This document shows positions 3,882-56,600 of a stretch of 64,000 nucleotides of DNA, piece after piece. Where the stretch lies: assembly GCF_041381155.1 (NCBI RefSeq), contig NC_091137.1, positions 15,433,765 to 15,497,764 of the forward strand, written 5' to 3'. A program made the translations under genes and the position numbers. Below the pieces are notes generated by a model. It saw only the letters and a list, made by a program, of their open reading frames with translations. It was not told the DNA's origin and ran no database searches. Origin of the DNA: Argopecten irradians (taxonomy: Eukaryota > Mollusca > Bivalvia > Pectinida > Pectinidae). Positions within the stretch are counted from its first letter, which is position 1. Each line of letters begins with the position of its first letter.

Positions 3882-4147
3882 TTAGAGGTTTTTTGAAGAA
3901 AAGAAGAGTCCTGCCTCAGAGGTAAGTCTGTGTTCTAACACTGTCGTATACTTCCTCTGTACCGGGACGTCATCAATTTCATTCCAATCTTGTGATTCAA
4001 AATTATGACAGCAGTAGCCATTAGCCTCTGTCAGCAGTTCCAAGAGATTGACTTGTTCTTGATTTTTTCTCCTCCAGACCTCCCTTATACTACACACCAG
4101 CCAGCTAAGGGCTTCATTAAATGGTTCTGGTATATAGTCGGGCACAC
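3882..4147 (-). CDS. Caspase-like gene exon 7: p10 and stop
   Basis: Residues 342-429 and the stop codon. The acceptor GGACAAG|GTGTGC completes the glycine codon begun in exon 6. It reads VPDYIPEPFNEALSWLVCSI, matching the p10 segment that carries the substrate-binding loop and SWF helix in caspases. Then follow LLELLTEANGYC (like ELLTxVN) and a C-terminal strand near GLFFSSKNL. The p10 arginine of the S1 pocket is not found. A possible poly(A) signal (AATAAA on this strand) lies at about 3623-3628. Confidence 0.8.
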
Positions 4148-7100
4148 CTTGTCCTTAATAAATAAACAATTGATACAATCTGAACATTTTTGACCAAAGG
4201 TTGTTTTTTTTTCATCTCCGTATGATAATTAAAAATTGTAAGAGGGAGAGTTTACACTCGAGCTATATTTAACGCAAAATACTGCATACTGGATATCATC
4301 CCAATCCATTATTTTCATATTGTATCATGTCTATGTCATTTATCATCAAATACTCAGAAATAGTTATATTTATCTTTGTTTAACAATTATTGAAGGTAAT
4401 AATTACTATCAAACCGTAATTATATAGAGTTTTGGTAGTCTTTACATCCCTTACCTTGTAATTATATAGAGTGTTGATAGTCTATACATACCTTACCTTG
4501 TAATTATATAGAGTTTTGATAGTCTATACATGCATCCCTTACCTTGTAATTATATAGAGTGTTGATAGTCTATACATCCCTTACCTTGTAATTATATAGA
4601 GTGTTGATAGTCTATACATCCCTTACTTTGTAATTATATAGAGTGTTGATAGTCTATACATCCCTTACCTTGTAATTATATAGAGTGTTGATAGTCTATA
4701 CATCCCTTACCTTGTAATTATATAGAGTGTTGATAGTCTATACATCCCTTACCTTGTAATTATATAGAGTGTTGATAATAGTCTATACATCCCTTACCTT
4801 GTAATTATATAGAGTGTTGATAGTCTATACATCCCTTACCTTGTAATTATATAGAGTTTTGATAGTCTATACATCCCTTACTTGTAATTATATAGAGTGT
4901 TGATAGTCTATACATCCCTTACCTTGTAATTATATAGAGTGTTGATAGTCTATACATCTTGTAATTATATATAGAGTGTTGATAGTCTATACATCCCTTA
5001 CCTTGTAATTATATAGAGTGTTTGATAGTCTATACATCCCTTACCTTGTAATTATATAGAGTGTTGATAGTCTATACATCCCTTACCTTGTAATTATATA
5101 GAGTGTTGATAGTCTATACATCCCTTACCTTGTAATTATATAGAGTGTTGATAGTCTATACATCCCTTACCTTGTAATTATATAGAGTGTTGATAGTCTA
5201 TACATCCCTTACCTTGTAATTATATAGAGTGTGTTGATAGTCTATACATCCCTTACCTTGTAATTATATAGAGTGTTGATAGTCTATACATCCCTTACCT
5301 TGTAATTATATAGAGTGTTGATAGTCTATACATCCCTTACCTTGTAATTATATAGAGTGTTGATAGTCTATACATCCCTTACCTTGTAATTATATAGAGT
5401 GTTGATAGTCTATACATCCCTTACCTTGTAATTATATAGAGTGTTGATAGTCTATATACATCCCTTACCTTGTAATTATATAGAGTGTTGATAGTCTATA
5501 CATCCCTTACCTTGTAATTATATAGAGTGTTGATAGTCTATACATCCCTTACCTTGTAATTATATAGAGTGTTGATAGTCTATACATCCCTTACCTTGTA
5601 ATTATATAGAGTGTTTGATAGTCTATACATCCCTTACCTTGTAATTATATAGAGTGTTGATAGTCTATACATACATCCCTTACCTTGTAATTATATAGAG
5701 TGTTGATAGTCTATACATCCCTTACCTTGTAATTATATAGAGTGTTGATAGTCTATACATCCCTTACCTTGTAATTATATAGAGTGTTGATAGTCTATAC
5801 ATCCCTTACCTTGTAATTATATAGAGTGTTGATAGTCTATACATCCCTTACCTTGTAATTATATAGAGTGTTGATAGTCTATACATCCCTTACCTTGTAA
5901 TTATATAGAGTGTTGATAGTCTATACATCCCCTTACTTTGTAATTATATAGAGTGTTGATAGTCTATACATCCCTTACCTTGTAATTATATAGAGTGTTG
6001 ATAGTCTATACACATCCCTTACCTTGTAATTATATAGAGTGTTGATAGTCTATACATCCCTTACCTTGTAATTATATAGAGTGTTGATAGTCTATACATC
6101 CCTTATTTGTAATTATATAGAGTGTTGATAGTCTATACATCCCTTACCTTGTAATTATATAGAGTGTTGATAGTCTATACATCCCTTACCTTGTAATTAT
6201 ATAGAGTGTTGATAGTCTATACATCCCTTACCTTGTAATTATATAGAGTGTTGATAGTCTATACATACCTTACCTTGTAATTATATAGAGTTTTGATAGT
6301 CTATACATGCATCCCTTACTTTGTAATTATATAGAGTGTTGATAGTCTATACATCCCTTACCTTGTAACTATACAGAGTTTTGATAGTCTTAATCATCCC
6401 TTACCTTGTAATTATATAGAGTGTTGATAGTCTATACATCCCTTACCTTGTAATTATATAGAGTGTTGATAGTCTATACATCCCTTACCTTGTAATTATA
6501 TAGAGTGTTGATAGTCTATACATCCCTTACCTTGTAATTATATAGAGTGTTGATAGTCTATACATCCCTTACCTTGTAATTATATAGAGTGTTGATAGTC
6601 TATACATCCCTTACCTTGTAATTATATAGAGTGTTGATAGTCTATACATCCCTTACCTTGTAATTATATAGAGTTGTTGATAGTCTATACATCCCTTACC
6701 TTGTAATTATATAGAGTGTTGATAGTCTATACATCCCTTACCTTGTAATTATATAGAGTGTTGATAGTCTATACATCCCTTACCTTGTAATTATATAGAG
6801 TGTTTAGATATCTGTATATATACATCCCTTACCTTGTAATTATATAGAGTGTGTTGATAGTCTATACATCCCTTACCTTGTAATTATATAGAGTGTTGAT
6901 AGTCTATACATCCCTTACCTTGTAATTATATAGAGTGTTGATAGTCTATACATCCCTTACCTTGTAATTATATAGAGTGTTGATAGTCTATACATCCCTT
7001 ACCTTGTAATTATATAGAGTTTTGATGGTCTATACATCCCTTACCTTGTAATTATAAAGAGTGTTGATAGTCTATACATCCCTTACCTTGTAATTATATA

Positions 7101-10100
7101 GAGTGTTGATAGTCTATACATCCCTTACTTTGTAATTATATAGAGTGTTGATAGTCTATACATCCCTTACTTTGTAATTATATAGAGTGTTGATAGTCTA
7201 TACATCCCTTACCTTGTAATTATATAGAGTGTTGATAGTCTATACATCCCTTACCTTGTAATTATATAGAGTGTTGATAGTCTATACATCCCTTACCTTG
7301 TAATTATATAGAGTGTTGATAGTCTATACATCCCTTACCTTGTAATTATATAGAGTGTTGATAGTCTATATACATCCCTTACCTTGTAATTATATAGAGT
7401 GTTGATAGTCTATACATCCCTTACCTTGTAATTATATAGAGTGTTGATAGTCTATACATCCCTTACCTTGTAATTATATAGAGTGTTGATAGTCTATACA
7501 TCCCTTACCTTGTAATTATATAGAGTGTTGATAGTCTATACATCCCTTACCTTGTAATTATATAGAGTGTTGATAGTCTATACATCCCTTACCTTGTAAT
7601 TATATAGAGTTTTGATAGTCTATACATCCCTTACCTTGTAATTATATAGAGTGTTGATAGTCTATACATCCCTTACCTTGTAATTATATAGAGTGTTGAT
7701 AGTCTATACATCCCTTACCTTGTAATTATATAGAGTGTTGATAGTCTATACATCCCTTACCTTGTAATTATATAGAGTTTTGATAGTCTATACATCCCTT
7801 ACCTTGTAATTATAGAGTTTTGATAGTCTATACATCCCTTACCTTGTAATTATATAGAGTGTTGATAGTCTATACATCCCTTACCTTGTAATTATATAGA
7901 GTGTTGATAGTCTATACATCCCTTACCTTGTAATTATATAGAGTGTTGATAGTCTATACATCCCTTACCTTGTAATTATATAGAGTGTTGATAGTCTATA
8001 CATCCCTTACCTTGTAATTATATAGAGTGTTGATAGTCTATACATCCCTTACCTTGTAATTATATAGAGTGTTGATAGTCTATACATCCCTTACCTTGTA
8101 ATTATATAGAGTGTTGATAGTCTATACATCCCTTACCTTGTAATTATATAGAGTGTTGATAGTCTATACATCCCTTACCTTGTAATTATATAGAGTGTTG
8201 ATAGTCTATACATCCCTTACCTTGTAATTATATAGAGTGTTGATAGTCTATACATCCCTTACCTTGTAATTATATAGAGTGTTGATAGTCTATACATCCC
8301 TTACCTTGTAATTATATAGAGTGTTGATAGTCTATACATCCCTTACCTTGTAATTATATAGAGTGTTGATAGTCTATACATCCCTTACCTTGTAATTATA
8401 TAGAGTGTTGATAGTCTATACATCCCTTACCTTGTAATTATATAGAGTGTTGATAGTCTATACATCCCTTACCTTGTAATTATATAGAGTGTTGATAGTC
8501 TATACATCCCTTACCTTGTAATTATATAGAGTGTTGATAGTCTATACATCCCTTACCTTGTAAATTATTATAGTATATATCCTTTTTGTATTATAGAGTG
8601 TTGATAGTCTATACATCCCTTACCTTGTAATTATATAGAGTTTTGATAGTCTATACATCCCTTACTTGTAATTATATAGAGTGTTGATAGTCTATACATC
8701 CCTTACCTTGTAATTATAAAGAGTGTTGATAGTCTATACATCCCTTACTTTGTAATTATATAGAGTGTTGATAGTCTATACATCCCTTACTTTGTAATTA
8801 TATAGAGTGTTGATAGTCTATACATCCCTTACCTTGTAATTATATAGAGTGTTGATAGTCTATACATCCCTTGCCTTGTAATTATATAGAGTGTTGATAG
8901 TCTATACATCCCTTACTTTGTAATTATATAGAGTTTTGATAGTCTATACATCCTTTACTTTGTAATTATAGAGTTTTGATAGTCTATACATCCCTTACCA
9001 TGTAACCATATAGAGTTTCTATACATCCCATACCTTTTGGACATCCGTAAACAATAAGGTGGTTAGGCGGGCAGTACACAGAGAAATGTTCTAACAGCTG
9101 ATTGTCTGTGATCAAGTCTGAGCAAGGACCACCTGACCTTAACCTATGTCGTTGTGCATGGTCTCCTTGACCGTTTTCTTTGCCTTCCTGTTTAGTTTCT
9201 TTGTGTCCCCCCTGTTCACTTTCTTTGCCTTCCTGTTCACTTTCTTTGACTCCACCTTCACTTGCTTTGCCCCCCTTTTTATCTACATGTACTTCTTTGT
9301 ATCCTGCTCCAATTTCCTCTTTGTCTGAAAATTCATAAAGTTGTGTCTTAAATTACTTTGGTAAATTTTTTTGTTTTATGACAATAAGCTAAAAGTGCAT
9401 GGGTAGCTAGCTAGCTCCCCATGGAAAATGTGAGTGGGATCCCAGCGGGATCCCGCTGGGATGAGTGGGTTTCCACTGGGACTGCAAATCCCACTTGGAT
9501 TACAGTGGGATATCCAGTAATATCCCACCAGGATTTTCGGAAACCGGGGATCCCGGTTGGATAAACCAGGATTCCTACAAGGATTCCAGCTGGGATTTCA
9601 CATGACCGGGATCCCGACTGGTCAGAGAAGAGTTACTCCCCTTTCTTGGAACTCTTTTCTCTTTTGGCAGTTCAAAATTAAGATGGAGGCTACCAGGTTG
9701 GGCAGTCAAAGTTTTGTGCATTTATTAGTGAATTTTAGGATATCAGCATTTTAGGTTAGTTTCATAATGTTACCAAAGTCATTATGTAAGCCTAAATGAA
9801 AAGAAATTCATAGATTGCATTCACAGTAATTTTGTTTAATAGAAATGACCAGTAACCTTGAAACATGATCTTTCTGAGTGATGAAAGTGCAAAGACATAA
9901 ATAATATTTTATTTGTATATAGCATTATAAGTTTACATAATTATGAAGAGAACAAAGCTTTAGTGCAATTCAAAAATTCAATAACATTTGAAGGTCAAGA
10001 AAAGGCTTGAGTTGATAAGTATCTTTTTGTTAATTTTTTCTATCTATAGCTGTTGTAACACAGCTCAAGTTTTATTTGAGAAAAATTCTTTGTTTGAAAT

Positions 10101-13100
10101 AGAACTGCATTCAAATATCAAATTTTTTTTTTGCTCATTGAAGAAAGCTAAATTATTTATGATCAATATTGCAAAAGATAGGATTCACTTGTATATTTCC
10201 CTAGGATCACACCGGAATTTTGTACTAGTATCCCGCCGGGATTGACTGGGAACCAATGGTGTGATTTGACTGGTATCCCGCCAGGATAAATTTGGAATCC
10301 CGCCCAATTAATCCAGTGGGAAAACCACTGGGATCCCACTGGGATCCCACTGGGATTCCCAGTAAAAATTTTCCATGGGGAGATCATGCTCAGCCATACA
10401 GATTGTACATGATGTACTAGTCAACCGAATGACTGACAACAACAAGAAATTTTATAAATTTCCGGATATTTGTGGTGAAAAGTTAACACGCCTGGATGAA
10501 TAGGACCTTGTAATGAATCTTCATGGAAGCTTTTGACTTACAATTTTAGTTGCAGGTTATGTGACAATTGACCGATCGCCAGGTGCGCCTCATGCTCAAA
10601 AACACATGTTTCTATTCAATGTCGGAGCAAACACCATAGAACACAAACATCTTAGCCCACACAATACGAAATTCAAAGTCACATGCGGTTTGATTGACAG
10701 CGATCTGTCATGTAGCAATGTGGCTGGCTATATTCATCTGTATGACAATTACAGGGGTAAAAAACCCAAAAACAATAGCATAGCAGACAACACAAGAAGA
10801 CGAGGACGCATCAGATCACCAACATTACAGAAATTGCATACAATGTTGTCAATGCCAACAAAATTGGTACATACATGTGAATAATCTACCAAAATGAGGG
10901 GGTACCACAAGGGAAAATATTAATCAAACCTATTTTGTTGCTATCTGTCATGTAACATAATAAGAGATACCAGAGAGGTCTTGGTTCTCACCTCAGAATG
11001 AGAATTAAGGATTTTTTCTTTGTTTTTCACCTCTTTTCCTTCTTTTCTTTTCAAATATTGAATACACATAGGAAACTTCAAATAAAGTCTGCTTGTAGCA
11101 AAACACTTCAAATTATAAAATTCAGTATGACAACTGTCTGCCACGTTGTGCTTGGATTTGTTCCAAAATCAATATGCAGAACTCAGGACCAATAATACCC
11201 TACAAGTTTACTTTGATGATGCTAGACCTCTTCAGTCCTTTCTGTGAAAGTGTCCAAGTCTTATCAGCCATGTTGTTTCCTAAGCATTCAAAAAATGCGA
11301 TTGTCAGAACTATAGGTTTCAAGAAGAACCTACATTAGAACTTTTTAGGCCACTAAAAATTTTTGAAATTTTAGTCAATTTTACCCCTTTTTGCCCCTCC
11401 CAAAGCCCCATGGGGGGTGGGGGTCATATAATTCACAATTTTGATTGGCCTTATGCCTTAGAAGGTTTGTCCAAAATGTAATTGAAATTGCTTCAGTGGT
11501 TTTTGAGAAGAAGTTGAAAATGTAAATTGTTTACGAACACATGATGCACGATGAGGGACAAAAGGCGATTAGAATAGGTCACTTGAGACTTTGTCTCAGG
11601 TGACCTAAAAAGCAGAGAAAAGATCCCTCTTTCCATTGTCAGACATAGATCATTCTTTAGTGGGTGTCAAGATCCCTCTGGGATCTCTTGTTTGAGAAAG
11701 AGCAATAACAAACTCCAAATTTCAAAATCCAATATACATGTAAAATGAAAAATGTCCTGTATGTACTTTATGTTATAAGAATTGTTAACAAGACAATATA
11801 CAATGTGTATATATAACAAGGACGAAAGGTGATTTCAATAGCCCACCATCTGATGATGATGGGCTAACATTAGGTGTATACAAATATATGAGACATAATT
11901 CAAAATGTAATACTAAACACATACCTTTCTCCTCATATATGGGAACGCCTGCATCAACTTCATCAAATATGGCTATTCGGCAAGCCTGGAAGATAAAAGA
12001 AGTGGCCCACTTGGCCTGTATTGCTGGCATACTAACTTACAGCTTTTACAGACTTTAATTATGAGAAAGAGGTTCAAAGGTTATAATCACTTTGATTCCT
12101 TTGACCTATATTGGCGGTCAAGGTTAACATTTCATAAATATACAGTTCAAGAGCTTCTCCATCTCTCGTTATAGGCCACATGCAGTCTCTGGACATCTTA
12201 CATTGATATTGAGAAATTGAAATTAAACTGAGAGGAATTGGTTAAATTAAAAGAAACAAACAAGGGGCCCAAGGACCTTAAGGGTCATCTGACTACCTTG
12301 ATAGTAATCATATAGGAAATTAATTAGATATAGTGTCATGGTAGCCATCTTCAATTTGTGATCACCCAGTGATATAACAACACTTTGTCAGGACCATGTC
12401 AGGATCATTTCATGCAAGTTTCAGCCTTCAGGTCGGATGACCTAAAAACAATGTTGCTGATCTTAAATTTTAACAATTATCAATAATACAACAAAAACAC
12501 CCATTATAAACAGGATTATCTTCCTTTGATAAAGCAACATGTGAATAAATTTTCAAATTTCAATTTCTTCAGATATCAACTACATATGATTAAAAACCGA
12601 GAGGCTCAATGGGCCTTAACGGTCATCTGACTATCAATACAACATATAGTATAACTGAAGTACACAGTAAGTTGTTAAAGAGTGTAGCCGTTCTTATCCC
12701 TGTGAACTTAAATGAAAGTCAAAGTCATTCATTTGAACAAACTTGGTAGCCCTTTATCACAGCATGTTACAATCCCATTATCAGGTCTCTAGGCCTCCAA
12801 GTTATTGACTATAAGTAATTTAAAGATTTTATCCTTTTTGACCCCTGTGACTTTGAATAAAGGTTAAACAGGGATTTCCCTCCTATCTTAACTTTGGGAA
12901 TCCCAGGGACTCCTAGGTTAAAGTTTGCGAGTCTTTTTGCTAAATTTTACTGTAGATTTTACTGAAGGCAATTAATGCTTCTACTTCATCTAATTGACCA
13001 GTAATTTTTATATTAGATTCCTTCCACATTGAGTCCCAAGAACTCCCATTTTTGTTTTAGGAGTCCCTATGCATTATTTTGTGTCAGAGGTGCACAAAAC

Positions 13101-16100
13101 CTGCGTCTGGAAAAAGCCTGGGTCAAGGTCATTTATTTGAACATACTTGTGAGCCCTTCATGCCAGCAAGCTTTCAGTTATTGAGAAGAAGTCGTTTGAA
13201 TGAAAAGGTTACGAACGCTGGACAGCAGACAGCGCACGACGACGGCCAAAGCATGATGGCCTAAAGGTCTTTAATGCAAATGTCATGCTTTTCTTGGCTA
13301 CATCAAAGTACATGTATTTTTAAAGTTGCTCCACCGCTGACAAAAGGAAAGTTTTCTCTATCAAAAACAGGAGCAGACAAATTGGTATTTTTCTTCAGTT
13401 ACAAAAGCTACTTACTTCATACCATTATCATCAATGAAAAGTTAGAGCATTTTATTTTGATTCAAGATAAAAATATTTAAGTGCATCCCGAAAACATTCC
13501 CTGGCACTATATCCTATATGGAATGAAGTAATGCTTGTGCATGCACCAAAAGCAAAATAAATTAGTTTATATTATTCTTTGTGTTATTTAGCCATATATA
13601 TGCATGATTTAACACCAATTATTGTTCGAATGATGAATAATCTTTATGCTCTGTCAGTGGTGGAGCATCTTTAAAGCAAAGACGAAACGTAAAGCAAAAT
13701 ATCAATAAAAAGTTTGTGCTGGATGATCGAGGTTCATTTTCTCTGCTTTAAAAGATTACGAGGAGTTGACTCTACTGAATGCATACTTACTCTCAGGGTT
13801 TTTGCCAGCTATTTTGGGAAAAGGACCCTTAACATTTATATTCTGGATGTAAACTCTACTGTATACAGTATGTATATACTCCCATTTACTATATATACAT
13901 GTTTTCTAGGAGTTGGGCTCTATACGATTTTATATATACTCACATTTATTATGTATATTCTGGGTGTTGACGCTAACATTTGGGTTTTCCTGTCAGGACC
14001 TGTGAGAGCCAACATATCCTGCAGTGTTATCGATGCATTATCAACACCTTTTAACATTTGGTGGCCATCAGTCAGATTGGTATATCCATGAGTAGATACA
14101 GAACAAAGGAATGTTTCTGTATCCTTAGTACAAAGGCTTACAGCATCTGCAAAATTTAATATAAAGGTATTTTCATTAAATGTATTTTCATGTAATGTAC
14201 AGCTTAATGGCCCATCAGGCCCTTGAAGCCAGTCAGTGATTTTGTAAATTTGACTTTTTTAATCTATTATAAAGAGTATTAAGTTCTGTAAATTCAAAAG
14301 AAGATATTTTGAATTTATAGTCATTTTGACCATGTTTGGCCTTGCCCCTCCAGTTTCATGGGGTCAGTAAGGACCGATATGGATATGTTAAAATGCTATA
14401 TCTCAGGCTAATAATCCTAACCAAGTTTGACTCATTTCCTTTGAAAATTGAGCCCATAAATGTGTTTTTCCTTTATAACTATAGTAAATTTGACCCCCTT
14501 CCCTGGCAAAAGAATGAGATCCCAGGGCCACGAAATTCACCATTTTTTCAGACATACAATACGACGCATGACGAAGGACAAAAGGCAATTAGAATACATG
14601 TAGGTCTCGGGTAGCCTAAAAATTAAAAAATATATAGCCAAATCATGACATTTTAAAACTGCTAACACTTAATTTTCTTATTTTTATTCAAAATCGAGAA
14701 AATCTTAGTCCTTAAAAATAACTGGCTATATCATATTTGGTTTAGTGAAATGTCTTTTAGCTCAGTATTCACTCTGAGCTGAAGTGACATTGTTGGTAAA
14801 CTTAGATTAGCTTACATTGTATGTAGATGGATTATAGTTTCTTCATACAGTTCAATATTGTACTTTTAGACTTTCGGTTGCATAAAAGATTTTGTGCAGT
14901 TATTTTATTTATTGTTGAAATTACTGAGTTAGTAAATTTTTTTCTGGTTTTGTTGTATTTTTGAAATAAACAAATATACTGAAACATTATCTAACTCACC
15001 ATTGATGATTGTTTTCATTTGGTTGGTAGTAAAATCCAAGCACTTCAATACTGTGAAGTTAAATGGTGTTGAGGAAAACATCATTGACATGACATCAACG
15101 TCCTTAGTGGCACCAGCCAATGAATAATCATATGGAAACTTAGAATTACCAATGAGGACAGCTATTTTTCTGGGAGGTGCCTGCCTCAACACATTGGTTA
15201 TCTCACTATAAATACAATAATCAAATTGATTCCATTACTTTTATTGTAATGAATGAGTCAAGATTTCTGACTCAAAACAAGAAAAGCACGGAGGAAACAA
15301 AACTGTTTGATTTACTGTTTGATCAATAATGTTTATGTTTGCTTTTAATTTTTAGGATGTTTTAAAAGATTCATCTTTTTAAATCAATGATATTCTCACA
15401 TATCCAAAAGACTACATGTATAACATTCAGATAAATAGCAGCTAGCACATATATTATGAAACATTAAAATACACAGGTACCATAATATGTGTATACATAT
15501 TAACTAAAGCCAGTTTTTACTACATGCATTTAACCATTTTATACTGTGGTACCTTTTATATTGAAGGAACTTCTCGTCATTTCCATCTGAAAGCAGAGAA
15601 CCAAAGTAACAAAAAATTTATAATGTTTTTGTGTATTCAATCCAATTGCCATGGTATCAGACAATATCTTAGATGAGATAGGAAAATATATGTAATAAAA
15701 TATATATTATATTATATATATGGCAGAATTGTATTACTGGTCTTATATATATAATGGAACAAAGAAACAACTGTCCTTTTTTATTCTCCACTTCTTTGGG
15801 TTATAGCTGTATAATTTACATCTTCGTTTCTATTTTCAGATATGTATTGGATATCGATTAATGTCTCATACCATTAATATTTACCATTTTAACATTTTCA
15901 GATATTATCAAGAAATATAAGCAGTAAGTAGTGAGTGATACAGTTGTAGAGATGTAAGGCAAATAATTGATAAATTTACATTAATGATGTTTCTATATTT
16001 TAAAACATGCTGAGGCTCTTTTGTTGAGAAATGGGTGATTAGATGTTTGTGTCAGTCACCATTGTAGTTCTGTTTACAGACAGACAATCATACAGCAGCT

Positions 16101-16417
16101 TCACAGTTCCCTCACTATAATGCATGTGATTACAAGGAGGGCAGAAATGACAACAGCAAAGGGTTCTTACTTAAAACAAAAAGGTTGGTGTATACCAGAA
16201 ACCTTTCAACTTCTTGTGGTAATAGAAATCCATCCTCTGTTGGAGTAATTGCTATCCAAAGCCCATCCAGGCTGTACTTCAGACCAAAAGCTTCTGGGAA
16301 CTTGTCCTTCAGTGCTGACCTTGGTAATATGTCATTAGAGATAGAAAACTGTGCCTCTGTAGGCTCCACATCATCTCCAAGGGTGTATTTTACCACAGTG
16401 ATCACGCGCGAAGACAT
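3882..16417 (-). CDS. Caspase-fold protein with TDP-43-N-like N-terminus (7 exons)
   Basis: Spliced minus-strand gene. Coding exons are 16417-16171, 15586-15553, 15205-15000, 14146-14000, 12023-11925, 9324-9034 and 4147-3882. They sum to 1290 nt (429 residues plus stop), every intron is GT-AG, and all phases agree. Residues about 5-78 resemble the N-terminal domain of TDP-43 (FPEAFGLKY here, FPGACGLRY in human TDP-43). Residues about 107-429 are a caspase (peptidase C14) fold: first strand KIAVLIGN, catalytic His182 in STHG, catalytic Cys226 in QACR, a charged linker at about 261-310, and p10 with LSWLVCSI and LLELLTEAN. Both arginines that give caspases their Asp specificity appear to be absent, so specificity is unknown. 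Inferred role: a cytosolic cysteine protease or signalling scaffold activated by oligomerisation. The exon 5 acceptor is the least certain junction. A non-coding 5' exon probably exists, since a good acceptor lies at about 16451. Confidence 0.8.
4402..9030. repeat. 42-bp minisatellite array, about 109 copies
   Basis: Head-to-tail array of a 42-bp unit (TTGTAATTATATAGAGTGTT + GATAGTCTATACATCCCTTACC). Most units are identical; a few have 1-4 nt indels, and one rearranged unit lies near 8565-8600. It fills nearly all of the last intron of the caspase-like gene. On the gene's strand each unit contains ACAAGGTAAGGG, a near-consensus 5' splice site. The unit at 9001-9033 merges with the real donor of exon 6, so the array seems to have grown from the exon-intron border. 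Confidence 0.97.
9034..9324 (-). CDS. Caspase-like gene exon 6: charged linker and p10 start
   Basis: Residues 245-341. The acceptor is GAATTTTCAG and the donor CAAAAG|GTATGG. The first part is a low-complexity linker with about four imperfect 7-8 residue repeats of the type KESEQEG. Then come LITDNQLLEHF and NHLIVYGCPKG, matching the start of the caspase p10 subunit (DFLxAYSTxxG). The linker sits where caspases are cut during activation. The antisense plus-strand frame here (9146-9328) is a shadow. The 42-bp tandem array begins directly at this donor. Confidence 0.8.
9415..10382. mobile_element. TIR element rich in GGGATCCC motifs
   Basis: It begins CTCCCCATGGAAAATGTGAG and ends with the inverse ATTTTCCATGGGGAG. 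Both ends continue for about 200 bp as GC-rich repeats of GGGATCCC and CCACTGGGAT type, while the interior is AT-rich. No clear target duplication and no transposase are seen. It is a non-autonomous DNA transposon in intron 5 of the caspase-like gene. Confidence 0.7.
10561..10884 (+). CDS. Unrecognised ORF, possibly an exon or captured fragment
   Basis: Open frame of 107 residues, antisense inside intron 5 of the caspase-like gene. It is preceded by an acceptor-like TTTTAGTTGCAG and starts at GTG unless spliced upstream. Composition is protein-like rather than low-complexity (HMFLFNVGANTIEHKHLSPH, then GLIDSDLSCSNVAGYIHLY and a basic tail NTRRRGRIRSP). I do not recognise a family and see no partner exon. 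It may be a transposon-carried fragment, since it begins about 180 bp after the TIR element at 9415-10382. Confidence 0.3.
   Translation: MTIDRSPGAPHAQKHMFLFNVGANTIEHKHLSPHNTKFKVTCGLIDSDLSCSNVAGYIHLYDNYRGKKPKNNSIADNTRRRGRIRSPTLQKLHTMLSMPTKLVHTCE
11335..11610. repeat. Dispersed repeat ending in GTCTCAGGTGACCTAAAA
   Basis: Features CCCCATGGGG, GATGAGGGACAAAAGGCGAT and AGGTCACTTGAGACTTTGTC. A related copy is at 14335-14625, and short relics occur near 3060 and 11820. It resembles a widespread mollusc repeat type; no coding is seen. Confidence 0.6.
11925..12023 (-). CDS. Caspase-like gene exon 5: catalytic cysteine
   Basis: Residues 212-244. It includes FIFQACRIA, which matches the caspase FIQACRG box with Cys226 as nucleophile and Ile where Gly is usual. 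The donor GAAAG|GTATGT is strong. The acceptor was chosen at TGCCAG|CA to hold the phase from exon 4. A second AG lies 8 nt downstream but breaks the frame, so the exact start is the weak point. Confidence 0.7.
12255..12445. repeat. Shortened inverted copy of the 1890-2720 repeat family
   Basis: It begins AAGGGGCCCAAGGACCTTAA and contains GGACCATGTCAGGATCATTT and CATGCAAGTTTCAG, the inverse of the units at 1890-2424. It lies in intron 4 of the caspase-like gene. Confidence 0.6.
12590..13270. repeat. Degenerate copy of the 'AAGGTCA' tandem-unit repeat
   Basis: It starts GAGGCTCAATGGGCCTTAAC and includes GGTCAAGGTCATTTATTTGA, GAGAAGAAGTCGTTTGAATG and a terminal GACGACGGCCAAAGCATGAT. The better preserved array of the same family is at 28005-28930. 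Frames within it are not genes. Confidence 0.55.
13319..13676 (+). mobile_element. MITE, copy 1 of 3 (TTTAAAGATGCTCCACC termini)
   Basis: About 358 bp between inverted termini TAAAGTTGCTCCACCGCTGA and CAGTGGTGGAGCATCTTTAA. The interior has CTATCAAAAACAGGAGCAGA, shared with copies at 24108-24473 (inverse) and 40425-40791. It lies in intron 4 of the caspase-like gene. Confidence 0.85.
14000..14146 (-). CDS. Caspase-like gene exon 4: catalytic histidine
   Basis: Residues 163-211. The acceptor is AAATTTTGCAG and the donor CTCACAG|GTCCTG. It carries the strand FLCSVSTHGYT, which matches the caspase active-site strand ending in SHG. His182 is the expected catalytic histidine. It is followed by TDGHQMLKG, matching the G-T-D-G segment of caspases, and a helix ITLQDML. 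The donor is weaker than the others, but it is the only one giving a consistent phase. Confidence 0.75.
14335..14625. repeat. Second copy of the 11335-11610 repeat family
   Basis: Shares TTTCATGGGGTCAG, GACGAAGGACAAAAGGCAAT and GGTCTCGGGTAGCCTAAAAA. It lies in intron 3 of the caspase-like gene. The two overlapping frames here are repeat translations. Confidence 0.55.
15000..15205 (-). CDS. Caspase-like gene exon 3: start of p20
   Basis: Residues 94-162. The acceptor is TTGTATTTATAG and the donor CAATG|GTGAGT. It contains the first beta strand (KIAVLIGN), then LAGATKDVDVM in the place where caspases carry R-S-G-T-D-x-D, and a second strand and helix (FNFTVLKCLDFT, QMKTIING). The S1 arginine of true caspases is replaced here. 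The layout is closer to metacaspase- or paracaspase-like members that lack Asp specificity. Confidence 0.8.
15553..15586 (-). CDS. Caspase-like gene exon 2 (34-bp microexon)
   Basis: Short exon coding NGNDEKFLQYK (residues 83-93). The acceptor is CTCTGCTTTCAG and the donor AAAAG|GTACCA. It takes 1 nt from exon 1 and passes 2 nt to exon 3. Both junctions keep the frame, which is the main support for so small an exon. It links the N-terminal domain to the protease fold. Confidence 0.7.
16171..16417 (-). CDS. Caspase-like gene exon 1: TDP-43-N-like domain
   Basis: Encodes residues 1-82. The start ATG (16417) is the first in frame after a pyrimidine-rich acceptor at about 16451. A TTG lies further upstream in frame but is not needed. 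The exon ends at a donor reading TTTTAA|GTAAGA. Its order of features follows the TDP-43 N-terminal domain: acidic EP motif (18-19), hydrophobic IL then S-A-L (30-36), FP-x-A-x-GLKY (40-48), EDGFLLP (61-66), and a final LVYTNL strand (74-79). This is a by-eye match, not a profile search. Confidence 0.75.
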
Positions 16418-16689
16418 CGATCTCCTCAACAACTGAATTATTCTGATCAAGCTAACAAAAGAAAGAAATGGAATTCACATCATCTGAAGTATTTACATTA
16501 ACTTTTGTCTGAAACACAATCAGTGCTTAATAATAAAACCGTGTGTTGAGGACTGAGGTAGTGAAGTTTTGAATCGTGAGGCACAATTACTCAAGTAAAT
16601 CATTATTAGTAACAGAAATATAATATGAAGATTCAGTAGTGTCTTTAAAGTTTTGAAACTACATTATCATATTTTAAGGAGTGAAGACA

Positions 16690-17000
16690 TGCAGCTGCCA
16701 GATCAGGGTTCAACCCCAGGACTTCTGAACACTAGCTGTGGTCTACCACTTGGTCACTAACTTTCAACCCAGTTCAGTCCTGTTACACTCCTCCCTCCTT
16801 TCTCAAAGTCTTCAAAGACACATGTACATGTACAAGAGACCCTTAAATATTACCAATGTGACCAGCATGGATATTTTGGATTTTGTTGGGTGCCAAATGC
16901 AAGTTTGTAACAGGGGAGGAAAAATGTAGCAGCCAGAGTGTGGTTTGAACTCAGCTACATGTAGGACTTCAGAAGTATCCCCACTAGATATTACACTAAT
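16690..17000 (-). mobile_element. tRNA-like SINE relics
   Basis: On the minus strand, 16760-16690 reads AAGTGGTAGACCACAGCTAG (A-box-like) and then GGGGTTGAACCCTGA (B-box-like), in tRNA spacing. A weaker second copy of the B-box region is near 16920-16965 (GTGGTTTGAACTCAG on the plus strand). No target duplication was found. Confidence 0.4.
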
Positions 17001-17214
17001 TTCCCCAAGATACTTTTTATGGCCATCAAATAAATCTCATATAAGACTCATACTTTTTTCTCAGAATAACGAAATATGCTACCCCTATACCCCTTAATTC
17101 TGAGCTACAAAATGCACCATTTTCAGCAATTTTTACCAGATTTAACCTTTTATTGAAAAAGTTCTGGTATTGAACTTTTGAAAATATTTTGCATATCAAT
17201 AGGGAAAAAGTTGC

Positions 17215-17580
17215 TCTTTCTAAATCAGGCAGAAAAACGGGGGGTCCGTGTGCTTATGTAAAGGGGAGGATGAAACCAAAGAACATTTCTTGCAACGTTG
17301 TCCGCAACTTAGTGTGTCGAGGAATATAATTATGACGGACATCACTCCACTCACCGGACGTCTCACGCACTCCTCTCCATCACTCCATGAAATTCTTAGC
17401 GCCAATATAACCCTTACTCAGTTACTGATTGACAGCTCCACGTGTGTCGGAAAATTGAAAAGGTCAGATCCACGTGCTACGCTTATCCACAGAATTAATT
17501 TCCACTCAAGAAGACTGTGCTATAAACTAAACATGGATTGATAGAGACTCCTTAATCTTAAACCAAAACGGCGGAAAAGA
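17215..17580 (+). mobile_element. LINE fragment: 3' end of a non-LTR reverse transcriptase ORF
   Basis: The 17248-17541 frame encodes CLCKGEDETKEHFLQRCP, the Cys-Cys-His-Cys knuckle typical of the C-terminus of non-LTR retrotransposon ORF2, followed by a short basic tail and a stop. The reverse transcriptase domain itself is absent, so this is a 5'-truncated insertion. Clade is not determined. Confidence 0.7.
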
Positions 17581-18079
17581 TGAAAGGCTTTTCACCAATA
17601 CTGATGTCAAAAGAACTCTTGTGTGTACATGTATATATATCTAGTGTTATTTTGCATGCTACCTGCTTGATGCTAACAGACTTATCCTATATATCCTGCT
17701 TTGATGTTGTGCTGTGCTACAAGAAATTTACAATCTTTTATCCTGGTATTAAGGTGTGGCCAGCACCAGGTTACTTTAATCTATACCTGAAAGTTAAATA
17801 TAAGAAATTGAACTTTTAAAGTACATCAAACCAAAGTGTACATAAACATTGTATAATGCATGGATACATTCTATTGGTGGAGGACATTTACAACCAACTA
17901 TCATTCTACTCAAAAGGAGGTGCTCCTATGCAGGAGGAAATTACTAACAAAGAAGAAGAAAAATACTACTTACAATAGAAATGTAACTTTTTGACAAAAT
18001 TTTTGTTACTGGCAAAACTACAAATACATGCTCATTGGTACAATAAACAGCTAAAATTCAAGTTTTGTTAGATGGAAAC

Positions 18080-18214
18080 ACAGGCGTCTGCATCTGGTTT
18101 TGAAAAAAATGAAATATCCTATCCCTACGATATGAACAAGGTGAGACACTCCATGAGTTCATATAGTAGGGGTAGGTTATTATAATTTTATCAAACCAGA
18201 AGCAGACGTCTGTG
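18080..18214. mobile_element. Small MITE, short form (CAGGCGTCTGCATCTGG termini)
   Basis: 135 bp with inverted ends CACAGGCGTCTGCATCTGGT and ACCAGAAGCAGACGTCTGTG. The centre has a second inverted pair (CCTATCCCTAC and GTAGGGGTAGG). Confidence 0.75.
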
Positions 18215-18585
18215 GATGGAAGGTGTACTGCTGTTGCTATTTTTAGCGATGCTTTTAATTGGTTGGCATGCCAATACTAAAATGTAAACCAAAATCTGAT
18301 CTGTTAGGCCTAATTGTCAAACAAATATACGGCGGGTAAATAACTGCGGACACGTGCCGTGTAATGTGAACACGCTAGGCTACTAGAATCATTGTTTCAT
18401 ATAAGAAAAGAAAACTGATAAAACAGGTTATAATGTTCCTCAACGCCCATGAATTGATATATCTTGTCATTTAGTAATACAATGGTCAGGTTGTATCATG
18501 GACATTAATACATTAAAAACCACGTTGATAAAATTACAGGTACATCTCATTATGGATATTTTTGCAACAAGATTTCGTGACGGTG

Positions 18586-34700: not shown

Positions 34701-37700
34701 CCATCTTACACAGGGGGGTGTAAGACAGCTCACACGCGCTAGACAAGAACGTGACATCATCAATACATGCTGAAAGGTTTTGGCCGTCAACCCTCGGCAA
34801 GCCTCAGGTTGACCGGCCAAAATCTTTCACTCGTGTTGAGATATCCCTGTCCACTTCACAGACCCATGTAAGATTCTATTAAACTTCTTCATATGCATCT
34901 CCTTTATATAAATAATTTGAAATAGTTGTAGAGTGAACAGTTAGATAAATTTTACTACTCATGAAAATAGGTTTCAATAAAATTGTATCCAAAATTTGGA
35001 AACTTAATATTAGCCACTTCAATTTTTTCTCTTTTGAAGAGCTAGTAAGAGTTGAAATTAAAACCATAGTGTTGCCAGCAGAATTATACCCTAGTTCAAC
35101 ACGGCTAAGTAGTATACGAGGGATGTTCCTAAATTAATGTTACTTGCACAATATCTCGTGGAAATCCTGCTAAATGGGCTTAAAACTACCTCGTGGCGAT
35201 AGCGTGATATCTGAAGTGTGATATAGGTAAATATCTCGCTCACAATTACACTGACCTTGATGCTGTGTACATTGTTTTGTAGCGCACTCGTTACACTCTA
35301 TACAAATATGGTTGGCAAGAGAGTTGAAAACGTAATTGAAATTACGGCCTATATCAAAGTTAGGTCTCTACTTGGCTTAAAGCCGGTGGATATTCATCGT
35401 GAGGTGTGTGATATATATGGGAAGGGTCAAATGTCATATATGACTATTTGTAGGTGGGTTGTTCGATTTAAGTCGGGACACCAGCAGCTTAAAGATGCTG
35501 CCCACACAGGTCGCCCTGCAACAACAACAACAAAGCATAACATTGAACTAATTCGGCAATTCCTTGAAAAAGATGCAAGGTACACTGTCCGGCAGTTAGC
35601 TAAAATAACAGGCTTATCTTTAGCACGTATTCATTGCATTTTAAAGAAACATCTTAAGCTGGGCAAGATCAATGCCAGGTGGATACCCCATTTACTAACT
35701 GACAACCAAAAGAGGTCCCGGGTTGACAAGGCCAAATTCTTATTGAAGAAATACCCAAAATACAGCAAAAAGGCTTTTGATAATTTGGTCACAGGTGATG
35801 AAACATGGGTGTATTTTTTCGAACCCAAAAGGAAATGCTCTTATCGAATCTGAGCAGGCAAAAACGCCAGGCGCCCTAGCATTGCTAAAAGAATATGCAC
35901 CGTAAGGAAGGTTTTGTATGTCATATTCTTTGATAACAAGGGTCCAATCATTCAAATCCCTGTTCCAAAAGGCAAAACTGTCATAGCGAAGTATTATAGA
36001 GATGTTGTACTTCGAAAACTTAAGAAAGTCTACAAACGCCACCGCCCACAGACAGGTTTTAAGTACCTCAGGCTTTTACATGATAATGCGCCAGCACACC
36101 AGGCGCGCATTGTAACGGAGTTTTTGAAGGCAGAAAAGGTCACTGTCCTCCCCCACTCTGCATATTCACCAGACTTGGTCCCCTGTGACTTTTTCTTGTT
36201 CCCCAAACTAAAATTTCACCTGTCTGGAACAAAATATAAATCAAGAAATTTTTAGCTTATATACAATAATGGTATATGTCAATCAAATCTTTTTTCACAT
36301 GCGATTCACTTTTGGAAATATCACGATCAAAATGAATTTGTGAATGTTTATCTCCGCAAATTGATATCTAAATTAACAAACGTTTATCTTCGCGAATTAT
36401 CATGAAGTGGGTTTACGGTATGTCACATGATCTATCATAAATAGAAGCAATAATAAAATGTAAAATGCATGTTAATGTTTAATAGTCCCTTTCAACATAG
36501 CCAAAAACTTGATAACATGATAATATTTGGAAAAGGACCTTCTCAATGTCTTTGGAGCTACTTTGGAATGATTCCAGCTATGAGACCATACCACTGCTTG
36601 ATAAGAGAATTGGTTTTGTGTATTGTAGATAGATAAGCCCGACTGTAGAGATGGGAGTGGTGACAATGTGGGGAGAGGCTGGGTATCTGTTAGTACTATG
36701 TCTAATACAGACACAGAGATTGCTGATGAAAATAAGACCCTGTTTGACTGGTGTAAGGATGGCAACACCACACAAGTCCAGAATATCCTAGCTGACTGTG
36801 ATGGTAATGAAGTCAACATAGCAGATGAATCGGTAAAATTTTACAGATATAAACTAATTATACAATCAAAAATGGCTCAAATTTTCTTTATGAAAGCATT
36901 TCTGAGAAAATTCTAATTTGTATGCCAAAAATGGTTAATTTTTTGTCCCATCTTTCTTTGGATATATATCATGAAATATTACTAATTGTAAACAGACCCT
37001 TTCAGTACAAGTCTCAGTCAACACTCACAGTCAACATAACACAAGTTTTTCAAAACCTATCATCTTAATTATCTTCTTTAATATACCTTCAACAATTGTT
37101 TAAGACAAGACTGAGATGTTGCTATTCTGGTGGCTCTTTCTGTTCTCAGAAATCATATATTTTAAATATGTCAATAACATACTGAATTATAAATTAATCA
37201 AACTTTGGAAAGCAAAAAGACATTTCATTACAAATTTGTAATACCTCCTTTAGCAGGGGACATTGCAAATTTTATCAAAATCTTTCAAGTAGTTTAGGAG
37301 GAGTTCGCCCGACAAAGTCTTGTCTACAGACACAGACGGACGGATGGACAGACAACCTGATTCAAGTATATCCCCCCTTTACTTCATTAGGGGTTATAAA
37401 AAATGGGAACGAATATTTTAATTAATTTATACAATATGTCTTAGACAACAATACAATGTTGATTTCAGGGAATGACATTACTCCACTGGGCATGTGACCG
37501 GGGTTTATCAGAGATGGTAGAGGTTTTAATCAAACTAAAGGCAGATATTAATGCACAGGTAAATCAAAATTAATTCTGTACAGTAATCTATCCAATAAGT
37601 GCTCCAATCCTTGTAAGAAACTCTTTGCCTTTTTTGAAGCCTCAATTTCAATTACCGGTACTTTCAGTTAAATGTGGATGAAGAATATATAAATTCTACA

Positions 37701-48220: not shown

Positions 48221-51200
48221 TATTTTAGATAACACTGGATCCTTATACCTGTCTGTAGGATACTTATTACCTGAAGTAGTAAATATGGGGCAAAGACGTT
48301 ATATCAAGAGTTGTATTCCAGATAACACTAGATCGATGTAGGATACGTATTACCTGAAGTAGTAAATATGGGACAAAGTCGTTATATCAAGGGTTGTATT
48401 CCAGATAACACTAGATCTATGTAGGATACGTATTACCTGAAGTAGTAAATATGGGACAAAGTCTTTATATCAAGGGTTGTATTCCAGATAACGTCTTTAT
48501 ATCAAGGTTTGTATTCCAGATAACACTAGATCTTAATGAACGATTGTCTGTAGGATACGTATTACCTGAAGTAGTAAATATGGGACAAAGTCTTTATATC
48601 AAGGGTTGTATTCCAGATAACACTAGATCTCTGTAGGATACGTATTACCTGAAGTAGTAAATATGGGACAAAGTCGTTATATCAAGGGTTGTATTCCAGA
48701 TAACACTAGATCTATGTAGGATACGTATTATCTGAAGTAGTAAATATGGGACAAAGTCTTTATATCAAGGGTTGTATTCCAGATAACACTAGATCTATGT
48801 AGGATACGTATTACCTGAAGTAGTAAATATGGGACAAAGTCGTTATATCAAGGGTTGTATTCCAGATAACACTAGATCGCTGTAGGATACGTATTACCTG
48901 AAGTAGTAAAAAATATGGGACAAAGACATTAAATCAAGGGTTGTATTCCAGATAACACTAGATCTCTGTAGGATACGTATTACCTGAAGTAGTAAATATG
49001 GGACAAAGTCGTTATATCAAGGGTTGTATTCCAGATAACACTAGATCTCTGTAGGATACGTATTACCTGAAGTAGTAAATATGGGACAAAGACGTTATAT
49101 CAAGGGTTGTATTCCAGATAACACTAGATCTCTGTAGGATACGTATTACCTGAAGTAGTAAATATGGGACAAAGTCTTTATATCAAGGGTTGTATTCCAG
49201 ATAACACTAGATCTCTGTAGGATACGTATTACCTGAAGTAGTAAATATGGGACAAAGACGTTATATCAAGGGTTGTATTCCAGATAACACTAGATCTCTG
49301 TAGGATACGTATTACCTGAAGTAGTAAATATGGGACAAAGTCGTTATATCAAGGGTTGTATTCCAGATAACACTAGATCTCTGTAGGATACGTATTACCT
49401 GAAGTAGTAAAAAATATGGGACAAAGACATTAAATCAAGGGTTGTATTCCAGATAACACTAGATCTCTGTAGGATACGTATTACCTGAAGTAGTAAATAT
49501 GGGACAAAGACGTTATATCAAGGGTTGTATTCCAGATAACACTAGATCTCTGTAGGATACGTATTACCTGAAGTAGTAAATATGGGGCAAAGACTTTATA
49601 TCAAGGGTTGTATTCCAGATAACACTAGATCTATGTAGGATACGTATTACATAAAGTAGTAAATATGGGGCAAAGACGTTATATCAAGGGTTGTATTCCA
49701 GATAACACTAGATCGCTGTAGGATACGTATTACCTGAAGTAGTAAATATGGGACAAAGACGTTATATCAAGGGTTGTATTCCAGATAACACTAGATCTCT
49801 GTAGGATACGTATTACCTGAAGTAGTAAATATGGGACAAAGACGTTATATCAAGGGTTGTATTCCAGATAACACTAGATCTCTGTAGGATACGTATTACC
49901 TGAAGTAGTAAATATGGGACAAAGACGTTATATCAAGGGTTGTATTCCAGATAACACTAGATCTCTGTAGGATACGTATTACCTGAAGTAGTAAATATGG
50001 GACAAAGACGTTATATCAAGGGTTGTATTCCAGATAACACTAGATCGCTGTAGGATACGTATTACCTGAAGTAGTAAATATGGGGCAAAGACGTTATATC
50101 AAGGGTTGTATTCCAGATAACACTAGATCCTGTAGGATACGTATTACCTGAAGTAGTAAATATGGGACAAAGTCTTTATATCAAGGGTTGTATTCCAGAT
50201 AACACTAGATCTCTGTAGGATACGTATTACCTGAAGTAGTAAATATGGGACAAAGACTTTATATCAAGGGTTGTATTCCAGATAACACTAGATCTATGTA
50301 GGATACGTATTACCTGAAGTAGTAAATATGGGACAAAGACGTTATATCAAGGGTTGTATTCCAGATAACACTAGATCTTGTAGGATACGTATTACCAGTA
50401 GTAAATATCTTATATCAAGGTTGTATTCCAGATAACACTAGATCTGTAGGATACGTATTACCTGAAGTAGTAAATATGGGACAAAGACATTTATATCAAG
50501 GGTTGTATTCCAGATAACACTAGAGTCTGTAGGATACGTATTACCTGAAGTAGTAAATATGGGACAAAGACGTTATATCAAGGGTTGTATTCCAGATAAC
50601 ACTAGATCCTGTAGGATACGTATTACCTGAAGTAGTAAATATTGTTATATCAAGGGTTGTATCCAGATAACACTAGATCTCTGTAGGATACGTATTACCT
50701 GAAGTAGTAAAATGGACAAAGCTTATATCAAGGGTTGTATTCCAGATAACACTAGATCTGTAGGATACGTATACTGAAGTAGTAAATATGGGACAAAGCT
50801 TATATCAAGGTTGTATTCCAGATAACACTAGATCTCTGTAGGATACGTATTACCTGAAGTAGTAAATATGGACAAAGCGTTATATCAAGGTTGTATTCCA
50901 TAAACACTAGATCTCTGTAGGATACGTATTACCTGAAGTAGTAAATATGGGACAAAGTCTTTATATCAAGGGTTGTATTCCAGATAACACTAGATCTCTG
51001 TAGGATACGTATTACCTGAAGTAGTAAATATGGGACAAAGTCTTTATATCAAGGGTTGTATTCCAGATAACACTAGATCTATGTAGGATACGTATTACCT
51101 GAAGTAGTAAATATGGGACAAAGTCTTTATATCAAGGGTTGTATTCCAGATAACACTAGATCTCTGTAGGATACGTATTACCTGAAGTAGTAAATATGGG

Positions 51201-52076
51201 GCAAAGACGTTATATCAAGGGTTGTATTCCAGATAACACTAGATCTCTGTAGGATACGTATTACCTGAAGTAGTAAAAAATATGGGACAAAGTCTTTATA
51301 TCAAGGGTTGTATTCCAGATAACACTAGATCTATGTAGGATACGTATTACCTGAAGTAGTAAATATGGGACAAAGACGTTATATCAAGGGTTGTATTCCA
51401 GATAACACTAGATCTCTGTAGGATACGTATTACCTGAAGTAGTAAATATGGGACAAAGACGTTATATCAAGGGTTGTATTCCAGATAACACTAGATCTAG
51501 ATACGTATTATGATAAAATGCAAGCTAAAGTTTATCAATAACATGATTGTAGATACGTATTACCTGAAGTAGTAAATATGGGACAAAGCTTATATCAAGG
51601 TTGTATTCCAGATAACACCTGTAGGATACGTATTACTGAAGTAGTAAATATGGGACAAAGCGTTATATCAAGGGTTGTTATCCAGATAACACTAGTAAAA
51701 ACTGAAGTAGTAAATATGGGACAAAGACATTAAATCAAGGGTTGTTTTCCAAATAACACTAGATCTAAATGAACGATTGTCTGTAGGATACGTATTACCT
51801 GAAGTAGTAAATATGGGACAAAGACGTTATATCAAGAGTTGTATTCCAGATAACACTAGATCTCTGTAGGATACGTATTACCTGAAGTAGTAAATATGGG
51901 ACAAAGACGTTATATCAAGGGTTGTATTCCAGATAACACTAGATCTCTGTAGGATACGTATTACCTGAAGTAGTAAATATGGGGCAAAGACTTTATATCA
52001 AGGTTTGTATTCCAGATAACACTAGATCTTAATGAACGATTGTCTGTAGGATACGTATTACCTGAAGTAGTAAATA
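48221..52076. repeat. 83-bp satellite array, about 46 copies
   Basis: Unit of 83 bp containing GATACGTATTACCTGAAGTA and TTGTATTCCAGATAACACTA. Some units are longer (near 48530, 51765 and 52030) and include AATGAACGATTGTC. These longer forms read as an exon-like frame after an acceptor-like TTGTATTCCAG: ITLDLNERLSVGYVLPEVVN. Units at 50370-50910 and 51500-51720 carry many small deletions. A single diverged inverted relative sits at 42230-42305. Confidence 0.95.
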
Positions 52077-53600: not shown

Positions 53601-56600
53601 GTAAGTCTTATTTTATTAAAGGACATTTTCAATTACTTATGATGAGCGACTTTCCTCGAGATTTAATACCTTAACTGATACCAAAATTGATGGTGATTTA
53701 ATTACATTAGATTCCGGTAGATCTTAAATAAAATTCACTATTTATTCACAAATAGTTTCACTATTCAAACATCTTTGCCATTCCTGTTATTAAAACGGAG
53801 ATGTGTGGAGCTAATACCTGACGTCTTTCTTTGGTATCATAGACGTTAAACACAGCTGACGAATAGAAGGTTTTTGAACAGTATGATGTTAATTGAATAA
53901 ATAACGTTACATGATTTCCAAGACCTTATGATTAAATAATCTATCCTTGCCTTGTTCTTTACTTCGTTCGCATAGTATGTAGTAAACGAAGCCATGAACA
54001 GATGCATTTTCAGGAAAACCAACATATATACCAGGTATATGCAAGGTTCCTTTCGAGCCTTGGATCGGGTTTGTTAATATTTTTTGACCCTTGAGTTAAC
54101 ATGCCTATCGTTCATATCCATATATGAAAGAGTCTAATGCTATTACACTAGTGACAAATGTAAAATATTACACGGACGTTGTCAATGGATGTCAGGCGTA
54201 TTATGTTATAAAAACAAAAATGTGTTATTGCGTGAACCTATCATACCTTTGTTGTTACATTACGTCAGTTCCAAATCTTGTTATCCTATTCAATGATTTT
54301 TTTTATCTAGCAACATACTCGTAGCTCCTTGCGCATATAATTGATAACACTATGACGAATAATAGTGATAAAGGATTACAAGTCCAATCAACAATGAAGG
54401 TATTTTTTCTCTGATCTTGCCGCCTTTACAACATTATATTTTGATCGTTAAAATCACATCAGGCCGAAACCATTTTATGTTACAAACTAGTACTGCCTTG
54501 GATATCTTTAACAAACAAAATTCATACAGAAATTAATCAAACTACATTTGTATCAAGAAATTTTTTTAGTTTGCAGTTGTAATACCACTGTATCCCTGGT
54601 AAATGGGCCATACGGAGTGGACAACTCGTCCATGACGTCATCACGGGAATGGTCGGTGCCTGGAGTCGATATATGCTCTGCCCATTTCGGGAGATTAAAT
54701 ATGCAGCCATACTTTGGTCCAAATGGAACTGAATACAGCGCCTGGTGTCCACCCAACAACACTTTAACAGACTATTTACAGGTATCATATCACAGGTGTT
54801 GTATTGCAGGTATTGTATTACAGGTATTGTATAACTGGCATTGTATTACAGGTGTTGTATTACTGGTATTGTATTGCAGGTATTATATTACTGGTATTGT
54901 ATTACTGGTATTGTATTACAGGTATTGTGATACAGGTATTGTGATACAGGTATTACTGGTATTGTATTACAGGTATTGTATTACTGGTATTACTGGTATT
55001 GTATTACAGGTATTGTATTACTGGTATTGTATTACAGGTATTGTATTACAGGTATTGTATTACAGGTATTGTGATACAGGTATTGTATTACTGGTATTAC
55101 TGGTATTGTATTACAGGTGTTGTATTACTGGCGTTGTATTACAGGTGTTGTATTACAGGTATTGTATTACAGTTATTGTATTATAGGCATTGTATTACAG
55201 GTATTGTATTACAGGTATTGAATTACAGTTATTGTATTATAGGCATTGTATTACAGGTATTGTATTACTGGTATTGTATTAATGATACTGTATTACAGGT
55301 ATTGTTCTCGGGAAACTTTTCAATGCTTCTATCATTCGGTTTATTTATTGATAATATATTTCAACTGAATGTCAACTTTTGATATGCTTGTAAGACACAA
55401 ACTACTGATATTACACAAAGATAACTTTACAATTCTGGACAGACTTTTAACGTAATGATTCAATACTGTTTGATTAAAAGGATATCGTCAAAATAGGAGA
55501 CATATTTGGCTAACATTCTTTTTGAATTCACCTTGATGCTACGTAAATTCTCTTTGTCCTACAACCAGCAAAAAATGGTTCTGCAAGTGTGCTGATTCTA
55601 GCGACTTACTATAAATTATTTGACAAAGGAACATATTTGCAACATTGCTGGCTTTATATAGTTAAAATATGCTGTTTAATGAATGTTGCAGTACTTAAAT
55701 GTCTTAAAATATAAGATGTATTTTAGCGAGGTTCAAGAAAAAGAAAGTGGCGAGCTTTTTCAAAAATTGCTGCACCCTAGTGATTATTATGTCCAAGCTA
55801 CAATTTCGTGGTGAAATTTCCCTGCATAAAATTTTGTTTTCGTAAACACATCCGCTTTGCGGTTTACAAATATATCTATATACAGTGCCGTGCCAAAAGT
55901 ATTCGGTCACAATGGCGGCGTGTTAACGTCGTGTCAATAACATCGCTGAAAATGGCCTTGGCATTCATTGTAAACGTCACTGATGATGACGTGCGTCATT
56001 TTTAGGTTTGCGTATGACGTCATGTTACGTCACACAATTTTTTTGTTGTCGTCTGCTTTCTGTTTTTTCCCGTGGACGTGTATTGCCAAGATGGGCCGAA
56101 AAGGAAAAGAACTATCAATGGGCGTTAAAAATATGATCGTAGGGATGTTTAGGAGTGGATATTCACGACGAAAGATAGGTATGATGTTAAAAATACCCAA
56201 GTCTACAGTTATTGACATTGTTAACAAATTTTGTACATGTGGTTCAGTGGAAAACAGGCAGAGAAGCGGACGACCAAAGTTAGTGAATTTGCGGGATTAT
56301 CGTTCTTTGGAGAGGATTATTAAAAACAATAGTAGGGATTCCCTTACTGATGTTACCATTAAATACAATGAGCAAAGTAATGTTTCGACTTCTAAAAGAA
56401 CACTTCAGCGACATCTGAGCCAACATGGGTACCAGGTGTGTTTCTAGGAAGAAACTTGTCGTGAAGCAGAGTAACCGAACTAAGAGACTTGCTTGGTGTA
56501 GAGAAAAGCGGAGATGGACAATATATAATTGGAAGCGAGTTATTTTCTTAGATGAAAGCAAAATAGTTATTGGACAGGACCACTGAGTTTATATATGGAG

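Follow-up and report, generated by a model that had tools for sequence, protein, structure and literature searches.

Does the minus-strand locus at positions 3882-16417 of a 64,000-nt stretch of Argopecten irradians DNA (contig NC_091137.1, 15,433,765-15,497,764; the whole stretch is referred to as the window) encode a single protein in which a relative of the TDP-43 N-terminal domain (NTD) is fused to a caspase-fold protease, and what would such a front end do there? The explanation favoured here, and considered reasonably probable, is that of one intact gene encoding a TDP-43-N-like domain, a short linker and a divergent C14 protease, in which the N-domain would cluster the protease for proximity activation. 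The genome searched for relatives comprised 845.8 Mb in 1,508 contigs.

Seven minus-strand exons, all bordered by GT..AG, join into a single frame of 1,314 nt with one terminal stop, giving a product of 437 residues. A preliminary description of the locus had reported the same coordinates and a single frame, its length of 429 residues being the part that required correction. The exons, and the satellite lying in intron 6, are as follows:

16171..16417, minus strand: exon 1, 247 nt, with the ATG and the TDP-43-N-like domain (residues 1-82), ending in a phase-1 donor.
15553..15586, minus strand: exon 2, a 34-nt linker exon leading from phase 1 to phase 2, so that exon 1 is in frame with exon 3.
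15000..15205, minus strand: exon 3, starting in phase 2, with a short linker and the first half of the caspase p20 (RKIAVLIGNS...).
13944..14146, minus strand: exon 4, part of the p20, with the catalytic His182 (THG).
11925..11985, minus strand: exon 5, with the catalytic Cys232 (NACR) and, after it, DEVD at 238-241.
9034..9324, minus strand: exon 6, a charged low-complexity inter-subunit linker and the start of the p10.
3882..4153, minus strand: exon 7, the p10 small subunit and the stop codon.
4416..9016, no strand: 42-bp satellite in intron 6, with exons 6 and 7 on either side (~98 + 10 copies, 94-96% matches).

A search of Pfam-A with the joined protein matched Peptidase_C14 over residues 106-392 (E 4.8e-19; 69.4 bits against a cut-off of 21.4), bearing out the caspase fold that had been proposed, and exons 2-5 by themselves matched the same family at E 1.1e-15. 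At E<=10, C14 and TDP-43_N were the only families found in the joined protein, with no Ig or death domain. Exon 7, which is separated from exon 6 by 4.6 kb of satellite, was scored with a p10 profile consisting of human caspase-3 and three caspase exons of the same genome. It reached E 3e-4 among 1,654 open reading frames (ORFs; those of the window and of loci L026-L058), the best match of the window, scoring 17.3 bits where the top one of 20,000 shuffles scored 13.5; all 12 ORFs that outrank it come from loci fetched as caspase matches, and three of the 12 are members of the profile. Exon 7 is therefore assigned to the gene despite the intervening satellite; that it might be an unrelated ORF past the satellite was ruled out by the same match.

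Individual residues were compared in an alignment with caspase-3 (sequence verified) and the p20 of the MALT1-type gene of this genome, the latter being named by reading (Ig-like exons upstream, CGHG, DICR). His182 and Cys232 align with the catalytic His and Cys of caspase-3, and the dyad is thus kept. The S1 arginines, however, are absent: taking Arg64, Gln161 and Arg207 of caspase-3 to be the S1 pocket residues, neither YDYSLAGATKDVD nor GVPDYIPEPFNEALSW contains an Arg, Glu stands opposite Arg207, the position of Gln161 is occupied by Asn, and QACRG reads NACRI. Among PDB sequences, a reconstructed effector caspase matched best (E 3.6e-6) and MALT1 reached 0.028; the sole match in the own genome outside the window was the MALT1-type gene (E 0.08, among the nine best candidates scored). 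Because the S1 arginines are gone, cutting at a P1 Asp is improbable, and cleavage after Asp by this protease is probably not to be expected; on the basis of this alignment and of the pocket roles of the caspase-3 residues we call it a divergent C14 protease rather than a classical Asp-specific caspase. The caspase fold behind a TDP-43-N-like front, as first described, holds in the form of an in-phase fold with both p20 and p10, but its designation as an initiator caspase with a swapped prodomain is too specific, since the S1 arginines are missing and the nearest own-genome match is MALT1-type at E 0.08. Ordinary executioner caspases could cut at the DEVD just past the p20.

Exon 1 contains ILPRSAL (30-36), FPEAFGLKY (40-48), EDGFLL (61-66) and LVYTN (74-78), all in the order previously claimed, with the IL..S(A/T)(L/V) segment ahead of FPEAFGLKY. 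The FPEAFGLKY site reads FPGACG(L/M)K(Y/F) in L002, L003 and L004, which are three separate TARDBP-type N-terminal exons of this genome, L004 having a longer open N-terminus. When the 1,654 ORFs were scored with a profile built from five other TDP-43-N sequences that this genome contains, that of exon 1 ranked first (23.4 bits, E 3.3e-6), the runner-up having 9.0 bits. Of 20,000 shuffled versions of exon 1, none scored as high as the real sequence (best, 9.1 bits), which rules out chance resemblance to TDP-43-N. Structure prediction and comparison gave a fold agreeing with that of the TDP-43 NTD, with TDP-43-N within the top three structural ranks. Homology of the exon 1 domain to the TDP-43 N-domain is supported by the sequence comparisons, and the models support a predicted fold like that of the TDP-43 N-domain (ubiquitin/DIX-like).

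Outside TARDBP, TDP-43-N-like domains are expanded in this genome (L005-L018, L058, L068, L069), with HECT-like parts downstream in some, and near-identical copies occur on contigs C4, C5, C16, C598 and C1071. The Pfam TDP-43_N cut-off of 27.1 bits is passed by L005 (35.2) and L008 (31.6); L017, of the L013-L018 group, matches below it (E 0.0015), and a genome search with the L017 domain returned 11 places, itself included. Longer downstream DNA was read at three of the 15 non-TARDBP places, where HECT was matched above cut-off at L069 (E 2e-7) and below it at L058 (0.0071), and L068, HECT-like to the eye, matched nothing in Pfam at E<=1. The top non-self match of the L005 domain is exon 1. 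In view of the HECT-like relatives, the domain may have turned into a reusable module in this lineage; most probably, a first exon of the TDP-43-N type spread in this modular way, and one copy of it now stands ahead of a caspase-fold protease. Searches for relatives gave 39 pattern matches in viral contigs, with three TDP-43-N-like domains as queries, and 50 in prokaryote genomes, with residues 1-250; none of either set was confirmed. No second copy of the fusion turned up, the seven genome matches at E<=10 being six window exons and the MALT1-type gene; as the whole-protein search scored the best nine candidates, a single copy is unproven.

Clustering by the N-domain would require an interface. 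PMC5491494 describes pairing of the TDP-43 tail residues Glu14, Glu17 and Glu21 with the head residues Arg52 and Arg55, and also Asn45, Ser48 and Asn76, oligomerisation in vitro being abolished by E17A/E21A or R52A/R55A; the other reported dimer surface is Leu71-Val74 (PMC5522446). These positions were located in an alignment of the window gene, the three TARDBP-type domains of this genome, L005 and L008. Both arginines are kept in the TARDBP-type domains and replaced by Leu/Pro in L005, Met/Ala in L008 and Ile55/Thr58 in the window gene, in which Asn45 is opposite Leu and Ser48 opposite a gap; Asn76 is not retained in the TARDBP-type domains either. Glu18 and Glu21 align with the tail acids Glu17 and Glu21, but the second predicted strand of exon 1, at 20-26, is suggestive of a shifted register in which these acids are missing. 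For the Leu71-Val74 surface, the last strand is predicted at 72-77 and the alignment is gapped just ahead, so residue matching is unsafe. As judged from this alignment, the window gene does not conserve the salt-bridge interface known from TDP-43. Polymerisation is not predicted by homology, because the head arginines are absent, and the earlier term "TDP-43-type polymer domain" is not sustained, Arg52 and Arg55 aligning with Ile and Thr.

Death-fold prodomains bring initiator caspases to proximity activation. In the favoured one-gene explanation, the N-domain would most likely gather copies of the protease, in homotypic clusters or by docking to proteins that carry a domain of this kind, and the gathered proteases would pair and be activated by proximity. 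With the two arginines of the basic head gone, the salt-bridge interface is an unlikely assembly surface and assembly would proceed through a different one; the options suggested by the sequence are another assembly surface, docking to partners, or no assembly.

Several results weigh against this explanation in addition to the missing head arginines. Exons 6-7 by themselves matched no Pfam family at E<=1. Pfam TDP-43_N (PF18694) did match exon 1, as had been anticipated, but with 15.4 bits (E 0.017), under the curated cut-off. A profile of the three TARDBP domains only also ranked exon 1 first, but at a non-significant E of 0.4 and with one of 20,000 shuffles scoring above it (8.6 against 8.1 bits); phmmer with residues 1-106 found no matches among PDB sequences; and the five AF2 models of exon 1 ranged from pLDDT (predicted local distance difference test) 78 down to 37. 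That exon 1 is spliced to the protease is a prediction from phase and splice borders. Among 99 ATG..GT first-exon candidates in phase with exon 2 or 3 (counted in 15206-18500), four have a GTRAG donor, namely exon 1 and three further short exons of 65, 14 and 10 nt, so that an alternative protease start without the N-domain may exist.

These short candidates, and the occurrence of TDP-43-N-like exons at many places in the genome, would fit two neighbouring units: exon 1, alone or together with exon 2, would be a leftover or separate TDP-43-N-like exon (one of the HECT-associated set, for instance), and the caspase-like gene would start at a short exon without a prodomain. We regard this as improbable, given that exon 1 keeps an open frame, a start codon and a GTAAGA donor, in phase 1 as in its relatives, that exon 2 makes its phase match exon 3 exactly, and that no HECT-like exon was seen by eye among the long minus-strand ORFs of the window below exon 1 (the Pfam scan covering the joined gene and 10 other ORFs). 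That exon 1 shares only a ubiquitin-like fold with TDP-43, with no homology, is very improbable in view of the five-member profile, the shuffles, the order of genome-wide matches, the donor phase and the structural ranks, all of which favour TDP-43-N. A genuine fusion might instead carry a pseudo-enzyme or scaffold, whose N-domain and caspase fold would act on other caspases as regulators or decoys; the replaced S1 residues, NACRI and a DEVD that ordinary executioner caspases might cut are consistent with this, but both His182 and Cys232 are retained and paracaspases, which likewise have no Asp pocket, are nevertheless active, and we consider it unlikely, though less so than two units. Equally doubtful is the proposal that the TDP-43-N-like domain is a shared homotypic plug by which HECT-type ubiquitin ligases and the caspase-fold protease would co-assemble in one signalling complex, and by which the protease would be switched on through a new interface and independently of death folds.

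Elsewhere in the window, satellites of 83 bp and 28 bp lie at 48254-52029 and 59954-61022, and mariner/Tc1-type transposon stretches at 35227-36252 and 55974-57117 (Mos1-type helix-turn-helix (HTH) with Transposase_1/DDE pieces; Sleeping Beauty-type HTH with DDE_3). An F5/8 type C (discoidin) match at 61423-61923 on the plus strand is below cut-off (E 2e-5), and a peptide resembling it at 54512-54830 has no Pfam match. The NCBIfam search gave nothing at E<=1, nor did Rfam across the window at gathering scores.

No paper on a TDP-43-N/caspase fusion was found in the literature searched, in which subscription papers and preprints were thinly covered, making this weak evidence of novelty; the word TDP is absent from the main texts of PMC7836458 and PMC8195603. 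If the one-gene explanation is true, a protease would be joined to the kind of domain through which TDP-43 self-associates, extending the use of this fold beyond RNA-binding proteins and offering a natural comparison for which TDP-43-N residues make polymers, and a relative of the front end of TDP-43, a protein known from motor neuron disease, would provide a caspase-type protease with an unusual route to being switched on.

Caspase activation platforms are mostly built on the death-fold helices CARD, DED and DD. The window protein resembles CARD/DED initiator caspases and the oyster DSRM caspases in its order of N-terminal domain, p20, linker and p10 and in its His/Cys dyad, and differs from them in its TDP-43-N-like prodomain and missing P1-Asp pocket; the prodomains of the 46 bivalve caspases reviewed in PMC7836458 are CARD, DED, DED+DD or DSRM, 24 of the 46 having none. 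With the MALT1 paracaspase it shares an IAVLIGN-type first strand, a first S1 segment without Arg and CRI at the catalytic Cys, whereas it has no Ig or death domain by Pfam, and the similarity is marginal. The HECT-associated genes (L005/L068, L008/L058, L017/L069) have HECT-like parts where the window gene has a protease, although L005 and L008 share with exon 1 both W-x-A at the arginine strand of TDP-43 and the phase-1 donor. Compared with the TDP-43 N-domain itself, the predicted fold, the FPxAxGLKY core, the position at the start of the protein and the phase-1 donor behind the domain are alike, whereas the window gene is 27% identical to the TARDBP-type L002 of its own genome, is without the Arg52/Arg55 head and is fused to a protease.
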